Below, piece after piece: positions 14,715-58,497 of a stretch of 64,000 nucleotides of DNA. The notes under the pieces were generated by a model. That model was not told where the DNA came from, searched no databases, and saw only the letters and a program-made list of their open reading frames with translations. Position numbers and translations under genes: made by a program. The stretch comes from Hydractinia symbiolongicarpus. Lineage: Eukaryota > Cnidaria > Hydrozoa > Anthoathecata > Hydractiniidae. Location: positions 33,629,851 to 33,693,850 of the forward strand of contig NC_079877.1 of assembly GCF_029227915.1 (NCBI RefSeq). Direction: 5' to 3'. Positions within the stretch are counted from its first letter, which is position 1; the number at the start of each line of letters is the position of its first letter.

Positions 14715-15580
14715 TTAAAATTTAATCACCAGCGGCCTGAATCTATATTCATCCTTTGTATTCAAAGATGGTTTCAATTGATTGATGAAAAGAGCCTCTA
14801 AAGTCATTAAATGATACGTTGATTTTGAGTTTGAGCACAAGATCGTTACGTCATCAATCGACAATTCACGTTCGCATTCTTTCCAATGATCCGCAACCGG
14901 GCCATTTCGTCGATGTTCTTTGAAACGACATATCAAATGACGGCTTGTTTGACCGACATAGCAAGACGAACATCTTGGACATGAAAATTTATATACTACG
15001 CCACTTTTCAAAGATTTTTCGACTGTTGGCTTTAGTGATGGTAGACAGCTTTTCAGTTTATTCAGCGTGAATATAATTCTGCACGGAGCTTTGATGTTGT
15101 TAAGCGTTCGTTTGAAATTACCCGAAACTTTACCACGATACTGAATAAATAACAATTTTTCTTCTGTTTCCTCTTCTTCTTTTTTCTTTTTCTTTTTCGT
15201 CCTGATCAGTTTGTGGAATCGGCTTTTCAATGATTTTTCTCAATGTGTCTGAAATAATGGGGTCGTAGAATTCAGCGGGATATTGGTTGTTATCTAGAAT
15301 TCCTTTAGCCTTTTTCAGACTTTCATGAAATGTTTCCCAACTGCTACAAGCTCTATAGACTCTATGTACAAGTCCAGACACAACCGATCTCTTATATTGT
15401 TTTGGTGCAAGGGCGTGGAAATTTAGTGTTAAACCAGTGTCAGTTGGTTTTGTATACCACTTTGAGACAAGGTTTCCGTGTGTTCTTTTTATAGACATGT
15501 CTAGAAATGCAATTTCTCCATTGTTTTCACGCTCGATAGTAAACTTTAGTGATGGGTGAATATTATTAATCTCATTCAAC
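14715..15580 (-). pseudogene. PLE RT C-terminus plus GIY-YIG nuclease, frameshifted
   Basis: Truncated copy of the PLE ORF. It begins inside the RT (LNEINNIHPSLKFTIEREN), continues through the RT thumb, and shifts frame at an A/GA-rich run near 15185 where one extra A is present relative to the right copy. It then reads the GIY-YIG endonuclease: VVYKFSCPRCSSCYVGQTSR, RFKEHRR and EALFINQL. The C-terminus (KDEYRFRPLVIKF) looks like the normal family ending, whereas the right copy is frameshifted there. No catalytic RT motifs are present in this copy. Confidence 0.85.
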
Positions 15581-17001
15581 TAAAGCCAATAGGAAGTCAA
15601 CCACCTAGAATCTACGGACTTGCTAAAGTACACAAAAATAACACACCAATGAGACCAGTTTTATCGATGCCAGGTTCTCCATATTACAAACTAGCAAACC
15701 AGGTAGCAAAGTGGCTGTCAGTAGTAGATGAATGCAACATCAATTCTTCCACGAAACAAATATCCGATCTAATTACACATCTCCAACTTGCAGAAAATGA
15801 GGAACTTGTGAGTTTTGACGTCACATCCCTATATACAAATGTACCACTGAACGAAGCAATTGATGATTGTACCAGTCTTTTATATTCTGGAAAATACGAA
15901 AAACCTCCAGTAGATCGAGAAACTTTTCATAAATTAACCTTACTATGTAGTAGCAATGTAGTTATGTCGACTCATGATGGATATTACCAACAAGTCGATG
16001 GATTGGCAATGGGGAGCCCACCAGCTCCAATGCTTGCTAATGGTTGGCTCAGTAAATTTGACGATATTATCAAGGGAGATGCAGATTTATTCGCGAGATA
16101 TATGGACGATATTATCAGAAATATCAACAAAGATAAGATCCAGGAAAAGTTGAATGAGATTAATAATATTCACCCATCACTAAAGTTTACTATCGAGCGT
16201 GAAAACAATAGAGAAATTGCATTTCTAGACATGTCTATAAAAAGAACACACGGAAACCTTGTCTCAAAGTGGTATACAAAACCAACTGACACTGGTTTAA
16301 CACTAAATTTCCACGCCCTTGCACCAAAACAATATAAGAGATCGGTTGTGTCTGGACTTGTACATAGAGTCTATAGAGCTTGTAGCAGTTGGGAAACATT
16401 TCATGAAAGTCTGAAAAAGGCTAAAGGAATTCTAGATAACAACCAATATCCCGCTGAATTCTACGACCCCATTATTTCAGACACATTGAGAAAAATCATT
16501 GAAAAGCCGATTCCACAAACTGATCAGGACGAAAAAGAAAAAGAAAAAGAAGAAGAGGAAACAGAAGAAAAATTGTTATTTATTCAGTATCGTGGTAAAG
16601 TTTCGGGTAATTTCAAACGAACGCTTAACAACATCAAAGCTCCGTGCAGAATTATATTCACGCTGAATAAACTGAAAAGCTGTCTACCATCACTAAAGCC
16701 AACAGTCGAAAAATCTTTGAAAAGTGGCGTAGTATATAAATTTTCATGTCCAAGATGTTCGTCTTGCTATGTCGGTCAAACAAGCCGTCATTTGATATGT
16801 CGTTTCAAAGAACATCGACGAAATGGCCCGGTTGCGGATCATTGGAAAGAATGCGAACGTGAATTGTCGATTGATGACGTAACGATCTTGTGCTCAAACT
16901 CAAAATCAACGTATCATTTAATGACTTTAGAGGCTCTTTTCATCAATCAATTGAAACCATCTTTGAATACAAAGGATGAACAAGATTCAGGCCGCTGGTG
17001 A
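15581..17001 (+). CDS. Penelope-like RT with GIY-YIG endonuclease, N-truncated
   Basis: A long open frame that would copy RNA into DNA and nick the target. RT motifs in order: PRIYGLAKVHK, RPVLSMPGSPYYKLANQVAK, LVSFDVTSLYTNVPL (first catalytic Asp), VDGLAMGSPPAPMLAN and FARYMDDIIRNI (catalytic DD), then FLDMSIKR and WYTKPTDT. After an acidic/lysine-rich linker comes the GIY-YIG domain with its Cys pair (CPRC), CYVGQTSR, RFKEH and the late Glu in LEALFINQL. The frame is about 470 codons; full PLE proteins are longer and start upstream of the RT, so roughly 150-250 residues are missing. The open frame formally starts at 15556 in the other arm, so that start is artificial. The last few residues are frameshifted relative to the left copy. 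Probably inactive but recently so. Confidence 0.9.
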
Positions 17002-47745: not shown

Positions 47746-50035
47746 TTTGTTTTAAGTCATTTTAAAGTAATTTAATTTCATTTTAACATCACAAAGCCTG
47801 AGCCAAAATTTTGTTTTGCGTATTAAAAATGTGTATCAATATGTTAAAAGACACTTGAATCTCTGTATTGTGATATTTTCGACTATTAAAAAAATTTACA
47901 TTTTATTCCGAAATAGTTAACGTTTAATTAACGTGGTAATTTTTGTTACAATACACGATCTTTTGAATCTCATCCCTTATTATTAACATCTCTATAAATA
48001 AGTTTAGATTGAATTTAAAAGCAAAGAAAACTTGACAGTGGCAATCCTTTTAAAAACAAAGAAAAAGATAACAATGTTTTTTTTTACCTGATAAATGATT
48101 ACTAAGTAAAGTTATGTGAAATGAACTTGATATGATAGTTTGGATCGTGTAAAAAACTGCTTGAGTTCTTAGTGAAAGTTTTTAGTAACAATTTAGCATT
48201 TAGGAGATACAGCTGCTTTATCGTTGTGCAAAGAATTAATGTAGAAAGTTATATTGGTTGAATTATTATTTGGTGCTGGTTTTGTGACTTCTCCAAAGAT
48301 ATATTTGATGTTTATAAGGTGCATAGGTATCTGTAATATTTCAAAAGTGATTAACATAGGGATGATTTTTCGTGAGTTGGTTCCGTGAATTGTATTTCCA
48401 CCACACGGGCACACTGAATAAAAATATCAGAAGTTGATGATCATTAATAATTGAGCGTGGAAGTATTAATTAAAAGTTATAAGGAAGAAGGAACTTTCTA
48501 AAGGTAAAAAGTTAAAAACGAATAACCAGATCTATTTTTTAGGTGTTATTGTTGTTTTTATAGAGAATTCTTGGTACGATTTGCACAAAAACATTTTTCT
48601 AGAAAGCGATAAATGCTTCTTTATAAAGAACATTAGAAATATCAAATTGTAAAAGAAATGACAACTGCTTTTTGTTTATTGATGTCATTCGTCTTGTCAC
48701 GGCATGTCCGAAGTACGACAGATGTCTCTGAGCCGGTGATGATGAAATGTTTCTTGAAGTGCTTAGTACGTATTACCATACACGTTGCTCTTAAAAAATG
48801 AAACTTATAATAATACAAATCAGGTGAAAAATCCTAAATCCTATTCGAATATAAATCCTTTCATCCTCACCTATAAGTCAATCACAAAGAGTAGCTTAAA
48901 TTATAACCAACTTAGCATGCTTTTTGTCTATGTCAGGAAAATTAATTTGGGCAAAAAGTACTGTAACTCTTTCTATTCGTAAAATTTGCGAATATTATTA
49001 GCCATTAACAGTACCTTCTTCTCCTAATTTACCTCGCATTTATGTAGTAAATACTTGAATTTCAATTTTAGCAGCCTTTATTCATGACACCAATAAAAAG
49101 ACAGTATAACTGAGGGAAGATTTTATGAATTTTTTTTACGAAATAATAGTTTATTTTATTTTCGCGAAAAATAATTCAGCCAAAATTTTTTTTCCTAAAA
49201 GTATCTAAAATTATTCCCTTCAGATATTTTTTTTGTTTATTTTGTCGATCGTATTGAAAAATATGCTCACTCTCGCTACAAAAGTCTTATTTACGAACAT
49301 TTTGACTCTTTAGAGAAGCGGTCTGTAATTGCCTCAAGCTGCTTTACATAGCACGAAAAAGTTAGAGTTTAAAAAGATTCATTGAATTTATTTTTATTGA
49401 TAAAAACTTTTTAAGTCAAATTATCTTTGTTCGGACTTCCAATGTTTAGGTTCAACTTTTGATGAGAGAAAAAAAGAAAGCAAACATATGGCAAACACAT
49501 TGCGATGATTTAGAGAAATTATAGACAATTTAGAATAGTCCTATCGAAAAGTTTTGACCACGTGTCTGATTGTAGAATAAACTTTTTTAAGGTTCACAAA
49601 GGTTTGGTGAGGATAAGAAAAGAGACGAAAAGTGCAGAAACAAGAAGATCAAATGTCGTGTTTTTCAACGTTTTTCAACGTTTTTTAACGTTGTTTAACG
49701 ATTTTGTTAGATAATAATATGCCTTGGTGTATGAGACGAAACTAAAACTTCACCTTCTCGACATCGTAGTTCTTGCAAACTCTAAAAAATCCAATATTGA
49801 ACTTGGTTAACATTTCATACGAATGAGTTTTAATATATAGTTATGTCAAGCTAAAAGAGTAGCTACTCTGTTATGTTTTTCGGATAGAGCTATTATCTGG
49901 ATAAATATTTTATTGTGCCTTTAGCCGTTCCAGGCAAGGTAATTCTTTACAATCAACACAAAAATTGAAGAGCCAAAGTCCTTTGATTTTGATTTTTGTA
50001 GCTAACTTACCCGCTTAAGTATGTGACAAATTTTT
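47746..50035. other. no gene recognised
   Basis: AT-rich. Contains a short tandem of 10-bp TTTTTCAACG-type units, four copies, at 49661-49700. Nothing else supported. Confidence 0.45.
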
Positions 50036-50255
50036 ATCTTTTGTATGAGTATGCCTTATAAGAATATGAGACTGGACTGGCTGATAACCGGTGGAAGAAT
50101 CCACTGAATCTTTCTTTGAGTCGATATGAGGGATTCCAAATATAAACATAAAACACAGTAATTTAAAGCTTTTTGGGATTTAAGATTAAAAACTATAGGT
50201 CTATTGTGTAGAACAATGGAGAAATAATATTAATGACCTCCTGGTTAGAAGAAAG
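50036..50255. repeat. diverged copy of palindromic MITE with SINE-like head inside
   Basis: The left part has GCCTTATAAGAATATGAGAC and the right part AATGACCTCCTGGTTAGAA, the outer words of the MITE at 24442-24572. Between them, AACCGGTGGAAGAATCCAC resembles the head of the SINE-like units at 33.1 kb. Confidence 0.4.
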
Positions 50256-50373
50256 TCTTTTCACTGGAACTAATTTGTAACTGTATTACATTAAACAACG
50301 GGAAATGTGAGACATAATAATATCGCCGATAAATTTTTATATAAAAATTTGTTTCCTATTTTTTTAAGGACAA

Positions 50374-51342
50374 TTGAAGATGTTTAACAACACGACTATT
50401 TTAAAGACCGTATCACAAGAGAACTGGTGTATTAACTACAGCGCAACATTTTTATCAACACAAGCCGGAAAAATAAACCTCATAGCTTTTTGTGTTGCAT
50501 CATTATTATGTTGTATTGTAAGTGTTGTCTTAAACACCATCTACATATGCGCAGTGTTAAAAAGCAAGACCTTACGAAAGTTGGTCAACGATTTATATCT
50601 CATGTTATCTATATGTGATCTGGTCTCTGGTTTATCGTTAATTCCTGTTTACTCTTTATGGTTGGACGGATTTTTGCATGAAAACCCTCGCTGTTTTCTT
50701 ATTAATGTATGGACAGTAATGGCGTATAGTTTTATTATGATGTCCGTAACAGCTATTGGCTTAATCACATTGGAAATATATATAGCAGTGTTCAAACCAT
50801 TTTCGTATAAGTATATAACAAAGAAGAGACTTTTATCCCTGTGTTTGTTAGGTCTATGGATACCATCTGTTGTATTTCCAACCTTGTCTGTATACGTGTT
50901 TTCCGATACAATTAGTATAATGAGAGCAGTCTCAACTGTTTATGCCTTGGTGATATTTTTAACTATGATTGTGTGTCAAAAGAGGATATATGGCTACATT
51001 AGAGCGAACGAAAGCAAATGTAGCAACCAGAGAAAGAAAGCTGCCAGAGTTGCCCTTCAGATTTTACTGGCGTACGGGTTATGCAGCGTGCCAGCAGTAA
51101 TGGCAAATGTGATTAATAGATTGTTTTTCGATTCGGTGATTATTGATAACTATGTCAATCGCTGGTGTAATTTTTTGGTACTCTCGTACTCTCTGTGGGA
51201 CACGTTCATCTATGGTTATCGTTCTTCTAGAGTTCGAAAAGAGGTTTTAAAGATGCTATTATGTGGATATGTAACCAATCCATCCATATCGCAACAAGAA
51301 AATCGAAAATCAGGAGCTTTTGTTGTATCAAATAACTTATAA
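50374..51342 (+). CDS. class A (rhodopsin-like) GPCR, intronless
   Basis: A 322-residue seven-helix receptor. The extracellular N-terminus has sequons at N5, N6 and N21. TM1 is about 35-60 with Asn54; TM2 about 72-96 with Asp82. Cys107 sits at the top of TM3, and the DRY motif is replaced by EIY at 134-136. Trp162 lies in TM4, Pro240 in TM6 (CSVP rather than CWxP), and DTFIY at 276-280 takes the place of NPxxY in TM7. The second extracellular loop lacks the usual Cys partner of Cys107. The C-tail is short. These deviations resemble lineage-specific invertebrate orphan receptors; the ligand is unknown. The ATG at 50374 follows a pyrimidine tract and AAG, which could be a splice acceptor of a 5' UTR intron or a trans-splice site; a TATATAAA lies just upstream. 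The gene looks intact. Confidence 0.9.
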   Translation: MKMFNNTTILKTVSQENWCINYSATFLSTQAGKINLIAFCVASLLCCIVSVVLNTIYICAVLKSKTLRKLVNDLYLMLSICDLVSGLSLIPVYSLWLDGFLHENPRCFLINVWTVMAYSFIMMSVTAIGLITLEIYIAVFKPFSYKYITKKRLLSLCLLGLWIPSVVFPTLSVYVFSDTISIMRAVSTVYALVIFLTMIVCQKRIYGYIRANESKCSNQRKKAARVALQILLAYGLCSVPAVMANVINRLFFDSVIIDNYVNRWCNFLVLSYSLWDTFIYGYRSSRVRKEVLKMLLCGYVTNPSISQQENRKSGAFVVSNNL

Positions 51343-51587
51343 CAGACTGCTCATAGTGATACGCACAGCCAGTAGTAAGACGAATAGGTCATTTTTATTT
51401 TTAAGATAAACAGAAGAAGTATCTACTGAAGAGAATTGCATGTATCATGTACTCTGCTGTTTGAATTGTAGCTAATGTGCATTTCTCATTGTTACATATT
51501 ATTTTTAGTAGATTTCTGTATTTAATTACCACAGAAAAATTCTACACTTGTTATTTTATACTGCTCTGTACCATGTTATAACTTAAA
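51343..51587. other. GPCR 3' flank
   Basis: AT-rich 3' flank between the GPCR stop and the TTAA-flanked element. The first clear AATAAA, near 51676, lies inside that element, so the native polyadenylation site is uncertain. Confidence 0.4.
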
Positions 51588-51736
51588 TTAAGGATACTGT
51601 AATGGTATAAACAAAAAATTTTTACATAAAAAAATTTTTTTTTCAAAAATATGTGTAGTTTGATATTCTCGACCATAATAAAAATTTTTAATGAGTTGAT
51701 TAGGCTATTGTTAAAAGATCAGGTTGCGAGAAACTC

Positions 51737-51790
51737 TTTTACGAGAAATTTAGATGTTCGTTCTTTTACGAGAAATTTAGATGTTCGTTT
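51737..51790. repeat. 27-bp tandem duplication in left inverted repeat
   Basis: CTTTTACGAGAAATTTAGAT plus GTTCGTT, twice in direct succession. It accounts for 27 of the roughly 43 extra bases in the left sub-terminal region compared with the right. Confidence 0.9.
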
Positions 51791-52069
51791 TTCACGATGT
51801 ATACATGACTTCAAATGTCCGAAACTCCCTCCACGATGGAGAAACTCAACAAAACTTTGCACACGAGGTCATCGATACCTGCTGCAAATGACTTTGTCAC
51901 TTTTTATGTATATTTTGATTATTTAAAGAAAAAGTGAGGTTAAAACACAAAAGAGCGAGCAAAAATTCATTTTTTCACTAATTTTTAAATAAAAAGCGAA
52001 CGACTTTTTCAAAAAAATGTGACAAAGTATTGTTGCTATGGTAATGCTAAAGTGCACGCTCATTCAACA

Positions 52070-52160
52070 TAGCCCGCGGCAGCGAACTTCAGAAACGCAC
52101 ATGCGCGAAAATTGGAAAACATAAATCGTAAAAATCCTAGGCGGCGATGACGTCATCACA
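52070..52160 (+). promoter_or_regulatory. candidate promoter of the RAG1-like gene
   Basis: A CpG-rich patch in AT-rich sequence holding GCCCGCGGC, an NRF1-like ACGCACATGCGCGA and the CRE palindrome GATGACGTCATC (52146-52157). It lies about 400 bases before the start codon. Purely sequence-based inference. Confidence 0.35.
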
Positions 52161-52237
52161 TTCAAAGTAATGCACTAACAGCCCAAATAAAGTCTATCAC
52201 CTACATATTAGACCCAAAATGTGTTTTATTATGGTAT

Positions 52238-52429
52238 GTGAGGCCACCGTCTCGTAGAAACAACAAAAATTGCAGCCATAGCCAGTGTTGTGGTTACGGA
52301 AATAACGAAACTATAACCGACGAGAAATCAGTGAATTTCCCCATTTTCCACGTTAAAATTACAAAAAATAAAAGTTTTTCTAGCAACATGGTATATATTC
52401 CTATAAAGGCACATCATTTAAGTTTTTAA
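52238..52429 (+). CDS. short open frame, possible upstream exon with half a zinc finger
   Basis: 63 codons containing NCSHSQCCGYGNNETI and NFPIFHV, which faintly resembles the first half of a THAP finger (Cys pair then FxxF). The second Cys/His pair is not present. An acceptor (ATTTTTTCAG) at 52465 begins a frame open through to the RAG1-like start, so splicing from this frame (for example ATG/GTATAT near 52390) is possible. It may equally be random. Confidence 0.2.
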   Translation: MRPPSRRNNKNCSHSQCCGYGNNETITDEKSVNFPIFHVKITKNKSFSSNMVYIPIKAHHLSF

Positions 52430-52543
52430 TTGTGAAAATTTCATTCTACTTACATATTTTTTCAGCTAAATATTAGGAGAAATGTAGAGCTCATATTTTG
52501 TCTAAACGCAGTTACAGCCGCTAGCCAAACGTTCCATAAAAAC

Positions 52544-53488
52544 ATGGCTGCTAAACACATGTTTGAATTGGACACACTATGTCGAATATGTGGATTTCTT
52601 CTCCCGAAAAATAAGAACAATACGTTCAAGGTTTCAAACCCTGAGGTCAGTAGAAGAATGCAGGAACATTTGTTTATAAACATTGAAAATGACACTGAGG
52701 CGCTCCACCCAACCAAAATCTGCATGAAGTGCTACTCTAGACTTGGACAATTGGACCATAGAAAAAGCACAAGTAACTTTGAGTTGTTTAAATGGACAGA
52801 GCATAGTGAGCAAAATTGCAATGTATGTGTAAACGAAATAAAGCGAAAAAAAGGGGGAAGGCCTGGAAAAAGGATGTCCACGGGACGTTATAGTGTCTCA
52901 AATTCACACTGGACCAGAAATGAGACATCAAAAATTAATGAAAAGTTAGGTGAAACAGTCGTGTTGATGAAGCAAAATTTTAAAGAAAAATTCAATGATA
53001 ACCTTCATTTATGCATATGCCAGTTATGTGAAAATTTAATGCAGAAGCCTGTGCTTTTGAATAAATGTCAACACAGCTTTTGCTTCAAATGCTTCATACC
53101 AACAGTGGAGGGTCGCCCTCTCGAGAGTACCATATGTCCCGTTTGCTTCACTTTGGTGACTCCAGAATTCGTTACACACTCTCAAACCATATCCCATTTA
53201 TTAAGTAATTTGAAAATTGATTGCGAAAAATGTGGTGAAGTTTTCAAACATGGGGAATATTGCAAAGAAAATCATCTCAGCATGTGTATCGGGCAAAAGT
53301 CGCCACTATTGAGTGATGTTTTTAAATTAAACAAGGAAAATGATATCCCGAGAGAATTTGAAAAAGCTGCTCTCCATGTGATCAAAACAAAATTGGCACA
53401 GTCAACATTACCAAATAATGGCATTAAGTTTATGACTGGTAGATCAAGAGTAAGAATAACATTATTTCAATCCAACATCACATATTAG
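52544..53488 (+). CDS. RAG1 N-terminal-like zinc/RING protein, no catalytic core
   Basis: A 314-residue open frame laid out like the N-terminal third of vertebrate RAG1. C13-x2-C16 is in LCRICG; H55, C60 and C63 are in HPTKICMKC; KWTEHSEQNCNVC (84-95) comes before a basic, Gly-rich stretch. A C3HC4 RING follows (C159, C162, C175, H177, C180, C183, C198, C201), then a C2HC finger (C227, C230, H244, C248). In RAG1 this region is a zinc-binding dimerisation and ubiquitin-ligase module upstream of the recombinase core. Here the core is absent and the protein ends with a short unfamiliar tail (FMTGRSRVRITLF). The ATG has A at -3 and G at +4; the frame is also open back to a splice acceptor at 52465. 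The uninterrupted frame suggests recent or selected activity. RAG1 N-terminal-like proteins carried by mobile elements have been reported in invertebrates (N-RAG-TP in Aplysia). Confidence 0.85.
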   Translation: MAAKHMFELDTLCRICGFLLPKNKNNTFKVSNPEVSRRMQEHLFINIENDTEALHPTKICMKCYSRLGQLDHRKSTSNFELFKWTEHSEQNCNVCVNEIKRKKGGRPGKRMSTGRYSVSNSHWTRNETSKINEKLGETVVLMKQNFKEKFNDNLHLCICQLCENLMQKPVLLNKCQHSFCFKCFIPTVEGRPLESTICPVCFTLVTPEFVTHSQTISHLLSNLKIDCEKCGEVFKHGEYCKENHLSMCIGQKSPLLSDVFKLNKENDIPREFEKAALHVIKTKLAQSTLPNNGIKFMTGRSRVRITLFQSNITY

Positions 53489-53556
53489 TTTGTCCCAAAA
53501 ACGATTAAAATTATATGTACTTTTTTTATAGCCCTTGGTCTTCACATCAACATCAA

Positions 53557-53596
53557 GCGTCATATTATCACTCACTGGTGAGTGATAATATGACGC
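53557..53596. repeat. perfect palindrome, 19-bp arms, 2-nt centre
   Basis: GCGTCATATTATCACTCAC, TG, then its exact complement. It lies between the RAG1-like stop codon and the right inverted end. It could be a cruciform or hairpin used in transposition, or a transcription terminator-like hairpin. Confidence 0.9.
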
Positions 53597-53815
53597 AGAA
53601 AAAAATAAAACGGAGGGGAGTTTCGGACGTTTTAGTGAAAAACAAAGATGTGGATTTATGACTACCTGGAAAAAAGTTAAATTTCATACTTACATTATCC
53701 TACAGACAATTTAATTTGCTTTTATATTCAATAAATAATTTTGATGAAAAAAACATATTTTTTGAGAAATAATGAATATACTGAATATGTGTCTATACCC
53801 TTACAGTATCCTTAA

Positions 53816-55080
53816 ATAAATGTAGTTCCAGTATCTCTGGCGGGGGTGCAGTTGGTGGTTTCAATATTTCGATATTTATGCTGCTTTTTGTCTGGAATTT
53901 CTCAATCTGACAAACGCAAGATTTATTATGGTTATTGTTGGTAAAATTTTCGGTCGCCAAAAGCTTGTCGGCGTTCGCAGCAAGTCATTACGATGATGTA
54001 AAGACAATACTTCTACAATTGAAATATTGCAATATAAGAAATAAAAAAAAAAATGCTTATCTGTAGTTTTTTTGTACGAATAAAATAATGCGAACAAAAA
54101 TTTTTAAAGATTTAGGAGTATATTTTTTCAATAAACATCAAAATAAACTATTTCCCTTTCAACATTTGTTTGGAACACCAAATGTCAACTTCTTGTTGCG
54201 ACAACAGGGAACGTAGCAAGTATATTTACCACCACTAACAGCAGAAGCTAGCGTATTTTCCACGAGATAAAAACAATTTTTATTTTTTTTTAAACAAAGG
54301 GTTTTCCACAAAAGAATTCAGACTGCTACCTCAACCTAATAAAAACCTTTTGAATTGATTTTCTTCGATGTACTGCACTTTTTTTAAAAATATTTAACAA
54401 AAACTTACTTATACTAAATCCTACTAAATCAGTAACCTAATACTCCTGTTGCTGAGGCGTTGACAATACAACAAAAGGATAAAGATGGCGCCATTTGTTT
54501 GAAATGTTAATAGCTAATAGTTTTTGACTTTATGAATTGTACTTCTTGGATATTTGTTTGTTTTGGATCCTGTAGATAGCCACTTGCATTATTACACAAT
54601 AACGACATGGAGGAGTACGCCAAAATTTATCTTTATTTATTTTTAATTATTAATTCAAGTTTTATTCACGGGAGGATTTAGACTCCAGCCATTTCGGCAC
54701 TTCCCTAAGTAGAATTTGCGAATTCGAAAATCCTGTGTATCTAAGACTAGTAATGTTGCCGCATTTCGGTGATTTTGTTCCTCTCGATTCCCTTATTTTC
54801 TGCCGTAAAATCAGTCGACTTCGGCGGCTGTTGAAGGGTGGACTTCTCGACCCTCTTAAAACAAAAAAAAAATTGTGACGTGAAGAAAAATCTCGCCGAA
54901 GTCGTCGAAATTTACGGTAACAGAAACAGTAATATTAGGCGATGGGTGCGTGTGAATAATTTACTCTTTCTATTCTTATTATTTTGCGGTAGCCGATCTG
55001 TTTGGTATGTTCTGCCAATTCCAGCAAGCTGTAATTCTGAATTATTGAAGAAAGTTTATCATTTTTTTTGAACATGATAG
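53816..55080. other. no gene recognised
   Basis: AT-rich. A plus-strand open frame at 54838-55071 is not recognisable. GATAAAGATGGCGCCATTTG near 54480 recurs near 57130 (GATAAAGATGGCGCCATTGG), hinting at a dispersed repeat. Confidence 0.4.
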
Positions 55081-55087
55081 TTTAGTA

Positions 55088-56545
55088 GGCGACTTTCGGG
55101 AGATCCTTCTCCCATCATCGGCCAAAGTTAAATGATGTTGAGCATGTATATATGTAATAAGCAGAGGATTGAAATTCGTAAAAAAATAACCAATCAGGAA
55201 CAAGCTGATAATTACAGTTAATTACGGTAATTAACATTACCGAAATTACCTAGATGGAGATAACTACTCCTTCTGTAGGACTGGTAACCAAATCTCAGGA
55301 AGTTGATACGAGATGCTGTTTATGTGTTTGTCACGTTCTACACTGTTGATGGTTTCTTTAATCTTCCTGGCCGTTGTTCTGGATTCTCTGTCAATGATTA
55401 TACTCTTATTCCAATTAAACTGATGACTTCTGCTCCAGCCGTGGTCCGCAATTTTGTTTTTCTTCACATCTCCGTTTCTCACTGCGCGCATATGTTTTTG
55501 AACACGTTGCTTAAACTTTCTTTTTGTTACGCCTATATGCACTGCATCACAATCTTTACACGGGAATTTGTAAATATTGCTTTCTTCTTCCGGGGTTTAT
55601 TTTGTCTTCTGCTTTAGACAAAGTGCTTCCTAGGGTGTCTTTAGAGTTAAGAATGCATTTGATCTTGTCTTGCTTGAAAAATCGACGAAGGATCTCGCTG
55701 GTATCTAGTAAAAATGGTAGGAATGCTGATGCGATGAATTCTTCGATGATTCCCTGTTGTCTCGGTTGCATCTTCTGTTCATTTTATTTTTTACTTGCGG
55801 GATGACTTTCTGACTTTATCCATTTGCGATTAATGCTTTCTTTACATGTCGAATTTCTTCTTTGCTCCCCTTTTTGTCACTGACTACGCTGTTGTCACAA
55901 TACAGTAATGAAGGTATGACACTTTCTTTGCAAGATTTCTGATGGTTTGATTCGAAATTAAGGTACTGGTCAGTGTATGTTGATTTACGATACACTGAAA
56001 CTGAAATGGAACCATTCTTGCGTTTAACCAAAGTGTCTAGGAAAGCGATACTTCCATCTTGTTCAAGCTCAACAGTAAATACTTTTGTCGATGCAGGCCG
56101 TTTATGTGTTCATGGAACTCTTCCAGATGGGATCTTTTGATTATGGCGAATACGTCGTCAACCAATCTTTTCCAAGCCTTCGGACGTCTGTTTGATGTGA
56201 CTAATGTTGTTGTCTGATGTGCTTGCATGTATATTTCTGCAACTATTGATGAAGCAGGACCTCCTATGGCAACTCCATCTGTTTTAGTGTAGAAGTTATT
56301 ATTAAATAAGTTCAATCAAATGCAGAAAATCTGGTACTAAAATCTTTGTCTTTTTGCCAAATGCAGTTTTCGATCAGGTGTTTAATGATGTTCAAGGTGT
56401 CTTTTATAGGAATATTTATGTAGAGTGATTTGACATCAAATGATACCATGCATTGTTTAAAGTTAGCAACCGTAAATCTCAAGCAAACGAATTTTAAGAT
56501 TTTGGCTACAAACGCAGATTTTGAGGGAGCATGCTTAAGTTCAGC
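55088..56545 (-). mobile_element. Penelope-like element, old degenerate copy
   Basis: Minus-strand PLE with RT and GIY-YIG pieces in several frames (56545-56320, 56315-56037, 56031-55816, 55771-55556, 55560-55264). The 3' flank carries a structured motif at 55088-55123, similar to the one beside the PLE at 14.5 kb. It is 5'-truncated in or just before RT motif 3. It belongs to a different PLE lineage from the 15-17 kb element, judging by the low residue identity. Confidence 0.8.
55264..56545 (-). pseudogene. PLE RT and GIY-YIG endonuclease, many frame breaks
   Basis: Order on the minus strand: KHAPSKSAFVAKILKF, MVSFDVKSLYINIPI (RT motif 3), DGVAIGGPASSIVAEIYMQ (motif 4), LVDDVFAI (motif 5, with V in place of the usual M/L), then KNGSISVSVYRKSTYTDQYL. 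The nuclease starts YLQIPV/KFPCKDCDAVHIGVTKR, with HIG replacing YIG, followed by KFKQRVQKHM. At least four frame changes and stops; not functional. Confidence 0.8.
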
Positions 56546-57514
56546 TTTAGCAAGCTAGCTGGTGTAATTTATTACTAATTTTTTGAGGTTTTTATTCGGT
56601 TAGGGTATAAGAGCTTCTTATCATAGCCGAAATTTTTTTTTATGTTTGGGTTTGTGGCTATGCAGCTAGCCCTTTATTTATGACTATATTTATATCTGGC
56701 TTAAAAGTGAAAGTATATTTTCGAATGCGGTTTAGCTACTCCAAAAATTCTTAATTAATAATTTTATGCTAAATGCTGTAAGGTAGCAGCTATACCTGTT
56801 ATTACTGTCATAAAAGCTTATTCTACAAATAAATTGTTGAGTTATTCTTTCACCTAGGAGAGGTAACAGCAGGCTTTTTTCCTGTATCTTATTTAAACAG
56901 AAGTAAAGTTTTTTGAAAAAGTGTATTACGCCTATACGTAAATGCAAGATGGTACCAAGCGCTTAGCCTGGTGTCACGATTAATTTTTTAACTTTCACTG
57001 GAACTTTTCCCGCAGGATGAGGTGATTGTTTAGCTGCACACTGTGTTTTTATTTAAACTAAAGTTGCGATAAAGTTTTTTGGAACAGGCAGGCCGTTCCC
57101 TGTGTTTCTATTTAACCAAAGTTGTGATAAAGATGGCGCCATTGGTTTTTTTTTTGGAAAGGGTATTTATACCTATATGGATGTGAGACATTGTTTACTT
57201 GTACTAAGCGCTCAGCCTGGAGTAAAATTCTTCTGAACATCCACCGGGAACATTTCCCGAAAAGTAAAAACGGTTTGCCAACAATTTTTGCTGTCACGGG
57301 GGTAACAATGGGTTGTGAATTGTGTTTTTATTTCGGCTAAAGTTGTGGGAAAGTTATTTTTTTGAAAAATATATTACACCGGAAAAACAATAATGTTGTG
57401 TGCGCTTCAGTCGATTTATGACATACTGCATACCTGTACTAAAGCGCCCTACCTGAATGTGTGGCACGGTTTAAGGTTCTTATTAATTGCTCCACTGGGT
57501 GTTGAACGCCTGGT
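56546..57514. repeat. degenerate tandem units of about 230 bp
   Basis: Three diverged units share TTATTTAAACTAAAGTTGCG against TCTATTTAACCAAAGTTGTG and TTTATTTCGGCTAAAGTTGT, and also AAGCGCTTAGCCTGGTGT against AAGCGCTCAGCCTGGAGT. Units begin roughly at 56880, 57095 and 57335. No coding potential was seen. Confidence 0.45.

Positions 57515-57638: not shown

Positions 57639-58497
<859 letters not shown>

Follow-up and report, generated by a model that had tools for sequence, protein, structure and literature searches.

An open reading frame (ORF) that resembles the N-terminal region of RAG1 was found in a 64,000-nucleotide stretch of the Hydractinia symbiolongicarpus genome (the window; G000:C3:33629851-33693850), inside an element of 2220 bp (51592-53811) that is flanked by TTAA on both sides. 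We consider it very probable that this frame corresponds to the predicted exon 1 of a Chapaev transposase, that it lies in a 1502-bp piece from the 5' end of a Chapaev element nested in a non-autonomous TTAA element, and that the remaining four kb, including the catalytic exons, were likely lost by misrepair. The window element is a truncated, nested member of a known Chapaev kind, and its stand-alone form appears to have arisen by accident at a single locus. The initial annotation had read the element as a RAG1 N-terminal-like gene travelling by itself on a TTAA-specific transposon. Its description of the structure was confirmed throughout, including the coordinates, the length, the inverted ends GGATACTGTAATGGTATAAACA and GGATACTGTAAGGGTATAGACA identical at 20 of 22 positions, the TTAA on either side, and the stop-free frame of 314 amino acids (52544-53488).

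The window protein has at least 129 matches in the genome (481 Mb in 76 contigs; scores obtained for 126 of 219 candidates, with two matches at some loci), many of them with stops. The four loci scoring best among the matches listed, besides the window and a second locus termed L009, are L060-L063. They match window 52055-53556 at 91-98% identity (L060 from 52054), L063 in two pieces with about 100 bp missing between 52142 and 52247. Left of the motif CACGCTC the flanks of all four differ, and beyond 53556 they share a continuing sequence from which the window diverges. The L060 element is 5616 bp long, with the ends CACGCTCATTTAA and TTAAATGAGCGTG and a duplicated GGCG, while the L061 element, also reached at both ends, has CAC...GTG termini and a duplicated AGAT. 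A more distant family, represented by L058 and L059, starts with CACGGCTGTTTCAG and ends with CTGAAACAGCCGTG, with duplications of TTCT (L058) and GGCT (L059). The initial annotation had named a longer relative with a DDE transposase as support for its reading. Longer relatives with a catalytic-core exon do exist, but the GGATACTG ends of the TTAA element are absent from those whose ends were reached, and all four relatives with both ends seen carry CAC...GTG ends and 4-bp target duplications instead. CAC/GTG termini and target-site duplications of 3-4 bp are named as Chapaev hallmarks in a passage of PMC4079192. According to a passage of PMC4411706, the Chapa domain is followed by a RING in two Chapaev subgroups, neither domain being found in the other transposable elements then known. 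The Hydractinia relatives show these termini, duplications of this length, and Chapa together with RING. The window retains the 5' terminus only, CACGCTC at 52055, and the 3' end is gone. Therefore, based on the CAC terminus together with the CAC...GTG ends and 4-bp duplications of the full relatives, the gene segment is identified as a Chapaev 5' piece.

The part missing from the window was recognized in the relatives. L058 carries a 223-amino-acid core frame after its Chapa-RING frame, and L059 likewise has a core. A core exon also lies downstream of the Chapa-RING exon in nine of nine further loci (tblastn; L060-L063, L073-L077). Altogether, the core follows in 11 of 11 non-composite loci with downstream sequence, versus neither of the two composites (the window and L009). 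As the initial annotation had noted, the recombinase core is absent: tblastn with the Chapaev core as the only query returned nothing at E <= 1e-3 for window 52055-57000 or for L009 plus 3 kb, RAG1 core and RAG2-like sequences not being searched for. Candidate catalytic motifs of the type D...D...CxxC...E (GGDHGG, YGDYEF, CLFC and YGEQ) can be picked out by eye in the L058 core; a C(2)C motif is expected for a Chapaev core according to a passage of PMC12730594. L058 and L059 align in two parts with 99.67% and 99.97% identity, and L059 is the shorter copy by 178 bp. An intact 347-codon Chapa-RING frame of this type, with no stop, occurs at 19 or more places with an identical score of 120.5 bits, including C8:2456367-2457257 (L058) and C13:19776815-19777705 (L059), and the family appears from these sequences to have been active recently. 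At 12 or more other places with an identical score of 33.1 bits (e.g. C7:327570-327884 and C6:18973162-18973476), only query residues 7-111 match, within a 171-amino-acid open frame, which perhaps represents a Chapa-only family.

The likeness to RAG1 proposed in the initial annotation, with the zinc motifs, RING and C2HC finger in the order of RAG1, was upheld by profile searches. The Pfam model RAG1_imp_bd matches residues 3-125 of the window protein with E 2.8e-7 and 30.9 bits (cut-off 23.3), and the Pfam zinc-finger model of RAG1, zf-RAG1, gave no match at E <= 1. RAG1_imp_bd was found in eight of the nine aligned family members, and a RING model also in eight of nine. When the alignment of nine relatives was used as a profile against solved sequences, the two best hits (among the best 60 of 142 matches) were full-length RAG1 over residues 101-374 with E 2.4e-18, followed by a RING2/BMI-1 chimera with E 1.9e-12. 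The matched RAG1 of 1040 residues is presumably that of mouse. The match is colinear over the zinc region, the RING and the following finger. The window protein alone found RAG1 at E 0.066, with RING proteins ranked first. The closest named protein is LOC130636963 of H. symbiolongicarpus (P0001), whose sequence is recognizable by eye in L063, which lies on C3. A protein search with the nine relatives added P0003 only, with no Aplysia protein, and a length-padded protein search for full-length transposases returned none. The viral collection contained no relative, and NCBIfam gave nothing meaningful. Structure prediction from three sequences yielded a mean predicted local distance difference test score (pLDDT) of 31, too low for the model to be of use. 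A passage of PMC4411706 equates the Chapa domain with the part of RAG1 matched here.

Similarity within the family stops at GGSR, after which the tails diverge. In the window, GTAAGA at 53450 and the end of TTTTTTATAG at 53531 would delimit an intron, and the following PLVFTSTS parallels PLTITPIR in the exon 2 frame of L058. The 314-codon frame is predicted to comprise exon 1 of the Chapaev transposase plus 12 intron codons, with 25 nucleotides of exon 2 left behind. The frame in L009 carries one stop and one frameshift. The window copy is most simply read as a dead fragment of young age with a frame that is open by chance.

L009, at C3:30.87 Mb, provides a second view of the composite. Window 48378-57160 aligns piecewise to it at 96-98% identity, with the element flanks included (3 kb were fetched on either side of L009). 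On first impression L009 was a second transposed copy. This was ruled out because its flanks are those of the window, making it a segmental duplicate. The duplicated stretch also contains a rhodopsin-like G-protein-coupled receptor gene (50380-51342; 7tm_1, E 2e-12). Three further segments follow the Chapaev piece in L009: 20 bp of the TTAA element in inverted orientation, some 0.7 kb of filler, and an exact 43-bp repeat of the target. The filler corresponds to window 55570-56374 (95% and 93% identity in two pieces) and is Penelope-like by eye, with no Pfam match. Frames that are Penelope-like by eye lie on the minus strand of window 55267-56554, the source type of this filler, with three window pieces giving no Pfam match. 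The window has neither the filler nor the 43-bp repeat, and shows a perfect palindrome at the joint instead.

Based on the two composites and the full relatives, we propose an order of events. A TTAA element of about 0.7 kb with GGATACTG ends would have been present at the locus, presumably movable by a transposase in trans. A Chapaev of the 5.6-kb type would then have inserted into it after ...GCTAAAGTG; the nested arrangement is seen directly, and the insertion of a whole copy is presumed. Subsequently, the Chapaev 3' part of about four kb, including the catalytic exons, was likely lost to misrepair of a break, which would have left the inverted 20-bp target piece, the Penelope-like filler and the second 43-bp target copy. 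Such templated filler would fit aberrant gap repair following an excision attempt. The locus was then duplicated within the chromosome, as the shared flanks show, and the window copy may later have lost the filler at the inverted piece, giving rise to the palindrome. The remaining frame is predicted to yield, if a protein is made at all, at most a zinc/RING protein devoid of the catalytic core. In principle, a transposase acting in trans might still mobilize the TTAA ends; no independently moved composite was found among the loci fetched.

The main rival for the middle of this history is a variant that is itself compatible with a nested Chapaev, in which insertion and misrepair are replaced by the arrival of a single retro-copied chimera of a Chapaev 5' end and a Penelope-like element, with a 43-bp target duplication. 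It would explain why the L009 insert ends in Penelope-like sequence, as judged by eye, and is then followed by the exact repeat of the left target. However, the Chapaev piece retains its predicted intron and starts at the terminus as after cut-and-paste, and the inverted bit of target separates the two pieces. We regard the variant as unlikely, though worth keeping in mind. A much less probable idea is that expression of the orphan Chapa-RING exon yields a ubiquitin ligase in its own right, which would restrain or redirect Chapaev in trans and be self-mobile by means of its TTAA shell, in which case elements like N-RAG-TP of Aplysia might be other orphaned Chapaev first exons. If true, this would offer a concrete route for uncoupling the N-terminal region of RAG1 from one transposase core and joining it to another.

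The outer element was compared with its own family. The sequence TTAAGGATACTGTAA occurs in 106 copies genome-wide (51 forward, 55 reverse) versus none in the backward control, and therefore the window termini are not a product of chance. The multi-copy TTAA family with shared GGATACTG ends, which the initial annotation had listed as possible support, is real. We examined 47 loci with a TTAAGGATACTGTAA terminal inverted repeat (TIR; L009-L028, L031-L057), which, when the window is counted too, cover 59 of the 106 termini. Ten of these were preselected for TTAA at both ends, and for this reason do not test the TTAA duplication. Among the other 37, 20 had no second terminus in the stretch examined (many stretches being 0.9 kb), eight offered nothing better than weak candidates (identity at 9-14 of 22 positions; one of the eight at TTAA), and nine had a good second terminus (at least 15 of 22). 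TTAA was found at six of the nine, and TTAT, ATAA and TTGA, each one base off TTAA, at the remaining three. These counts indicate that TTAA is duplicated by the family. Seven of the ten elements measured are 311-867 bp in length. At L026:5890-8636, frames with THAP (E 4.9e-9) and TNP-like RNase H / GTP-binding insertion domains start about 320 bp inside a TTAAGGATACTGTAATGG terminus. L026 is possibly an autonomous partner of the TTAA elements or else a P-like element; the former was considered, and a second terminus was not found. At L016:1181-1708, an rva_4 integrase-core fragment (E 5e-11) amid two pieces of TTAA element represents another nested insertion.

The similarity of the window element to several TIR loci runs to position ~467 of the element, breaks off and resumes at ~1991. 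A probe joining the two outer parts was spanned unbroken in 14 of the 46 TIR loci besides L009 (75-92% identity) and weakly in two more. The gene segment is present in none of the 46 within the stretches examined, L009 being the only locus to have it. Conversely, TTAA-element sequence was found in none of eight Chapaev stretches (L058-L065, six elements). These results do not support the claim of a RAG1-like part travelling alone on the TTAA element; copies lacking only the gene, which the initial annotation had itself set against its reading, occur in paralogous form. Our own early view of the frame as an independent gene with the TTAA element as its vehicle was overturned by the comparison of TIR loci and the alignments of L060-L063. 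A stand-alone RAG1-N-like gene that moves regularly as cargo of a TTAA-specific element would suit the intact frame, the TIRs with TTAA on both sides and the multi-copy TIR family. Set against these are the 14 clear empty versions and the absence of the gene from the examined stretches of all 46 loci, the shared flanks of the sole other composite, and the start of the gene segment at a Chapaev terminus, and we find such a cargo very improbable. Equally hard to sustain is a host or domesticated RAG1-N/Chapa-RING gene under selection with the TTAA element as a bystander: the frame is open in the window while its duplicate in L009 is disrupted, but the ratios of nonsynonymous to synonymous change (dN/dS 0.30-1.03 in five comparisons, with 3-9 synonymous changes each) rest on too few changes for selection to be inferred, the frame enters the predicted intron, and the genome matches behave like transposon copies.

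Several points weigh against the nested Chapaev as we describe it. The empty versions are paralogous and not orthologous sites. The other 30 of the 46 TIR loci gave no read-through and are uninformative either way, because they belong to another subfamily, are damaged or are short stretches. In addition, 20 TIR stretches cover only 0.9 kb, so that a composite like L009 anchored at its right end would be missed. We infer the repair route and the order of loss and duplication. As for the core exon, DUF1280 is its sole Pfam match above cut-off, and none of the solved structures is related to it at E <= 10. Its assignment to Chapaev is based on the termini, the duplication length, Chapa plus RING and motifs read by eye.

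Table 1. Positions of the nested element and its parts in the window.
Feature	Positions	Strand	Basis
Left target-site copy, TTAA	51588..51591	.	Sequence read
Left terminal inverted repeat, GGATACTGTAATGGTATAAACA	51592..51613	+	Sequence and comparison of TIR loci
Left part of non-autonomous TTAA (Kolobok-like) element	51592..52054	+	blastn to several TIR loci ends here and resumes near 53578
43-bp stretch with a second copy beyond the insert in L009	52012..52054	+	Comparison with L009
Chapaev 5'-terminal 1502 bp: terminus CACGCTCATTCAACATAGCC followed by the leader, exon 1, the predicted intron and the first 25 nt of the predicted exon 2	52055..53556	+	Alignment to L060-L063
314-amino-acid ORF with a Chapa zinc region, a RING and a C2HC-like finger, its final 12 codons within the predicted intron	52544..53488	+	ORF and domain searches
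RING finger, residues 159-201	53018..53146	+	Pfam
Predicted intron, GTAAGA...TTTTTTATAG, between exon 1 (..GRSR at its end) and exon 2 (which would begin PLVFTSTS)	53450..53531	+	Predicted from sequence and family comparison
Palindrome of two perfect 19-bp arms, at the broken end	53557..53596	.	Left arm is similar to an inverted copy of the TTAA-element sequence adjoining the insertion point on the right
Right part of TTAA element	53578..53811	+	blastn and empty-site probe
Right terminal inverted repeat, GGATACTGTAAGGGTATAGACA read inward	53790..53811	-	Sequence and comparison of TIR loci
Right target-site copy, TTAA	53812..53815	.	Sequence read

Elsewhere in the window, a DDE_Tnp_4 transposase fragment (57732-58229; E 3.8e-10) enters a long TA-rich simple repeat. 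Positions 14718-16998 hold a 482-amino-acid frame together with reverse-strand frames, Penelope-like by eye, with one part present as an inverted duplicate.

Recognizing this gene as part of a broken Chapaev nested in a second element takes away a tempting but false lead on the assembly of RAG1, namely a RAG1-N gene borne by a TTAA transposon. It also illustrates how an orphan can seem intact, with an exon that stays open into its predicted intron and with borrowed inverted ends. In addition, the near-identical, multi-copy, RING-bearing Chapaev elements with a core exon could make the role of a RAG1-type RING in a transposon testable in a laboratory cnidarian.

Among known systems, Kolobok is defined by TTAA duplication and RR (purine) termini, as stated in a passage of PMC6004289. 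The outer element and its short relatives share with it the TTAA and the GG termini, whereas the window element has no THAP-domain DDE transposase of its own and the L026 frames are a candidate partner only. The outer element is at most a non-autonomous Kolobok relative. The RAGL transposons of cnidarians also have a RAG1-like N-terminal region. They are described as RAG1L/RAG2L pairs in a passage of PMC7204232, with 5-bp duplications in one of PMC9885083, whereas the window gave no core match with the Chapaev core query and the duplications of its relatives are 4 bp. The RAG1L of Aurelia is described as having no RING-containing domain (in a passage of PMC7204232), which is present here. The RING carriers observed in this analysis are therefore the Chapaev elements, RAGL genes not having been searched for in the genome.

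The claim that RAG1 N-like mobile genes occur in other invertebrates agrees with N-RAG-TP of Aplysia (Panchin and Moroz 2008), which citing papers (passages of PMC8355894 and PMC2996935) describe as a stand-alone transposon said to encode only the RAG1 N-terminal-like part. The novelty that the initial annotation had seen in the stand-alone form does not hold, as N-RAG-TP and Chapaev elements with Chapa plus RING (PMC4411706, in part) are already in print. Our literature search returned no paper on Chapaev in Hydractinia, nor one on Chapaev with TTAA and target-site duplication. The closest likeness is to Chapaev itself (Kapitonov and Jurka, as presented in part of PMC4411706), with which the relatives share the CAC...GTG ends, the 4-bp duplications, the order of Chapa, RING and core, and the match to RAG1 residues 101-374. 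The window copy differs from it in consisting of the 5' 1502 bp only and in being nested in another element.

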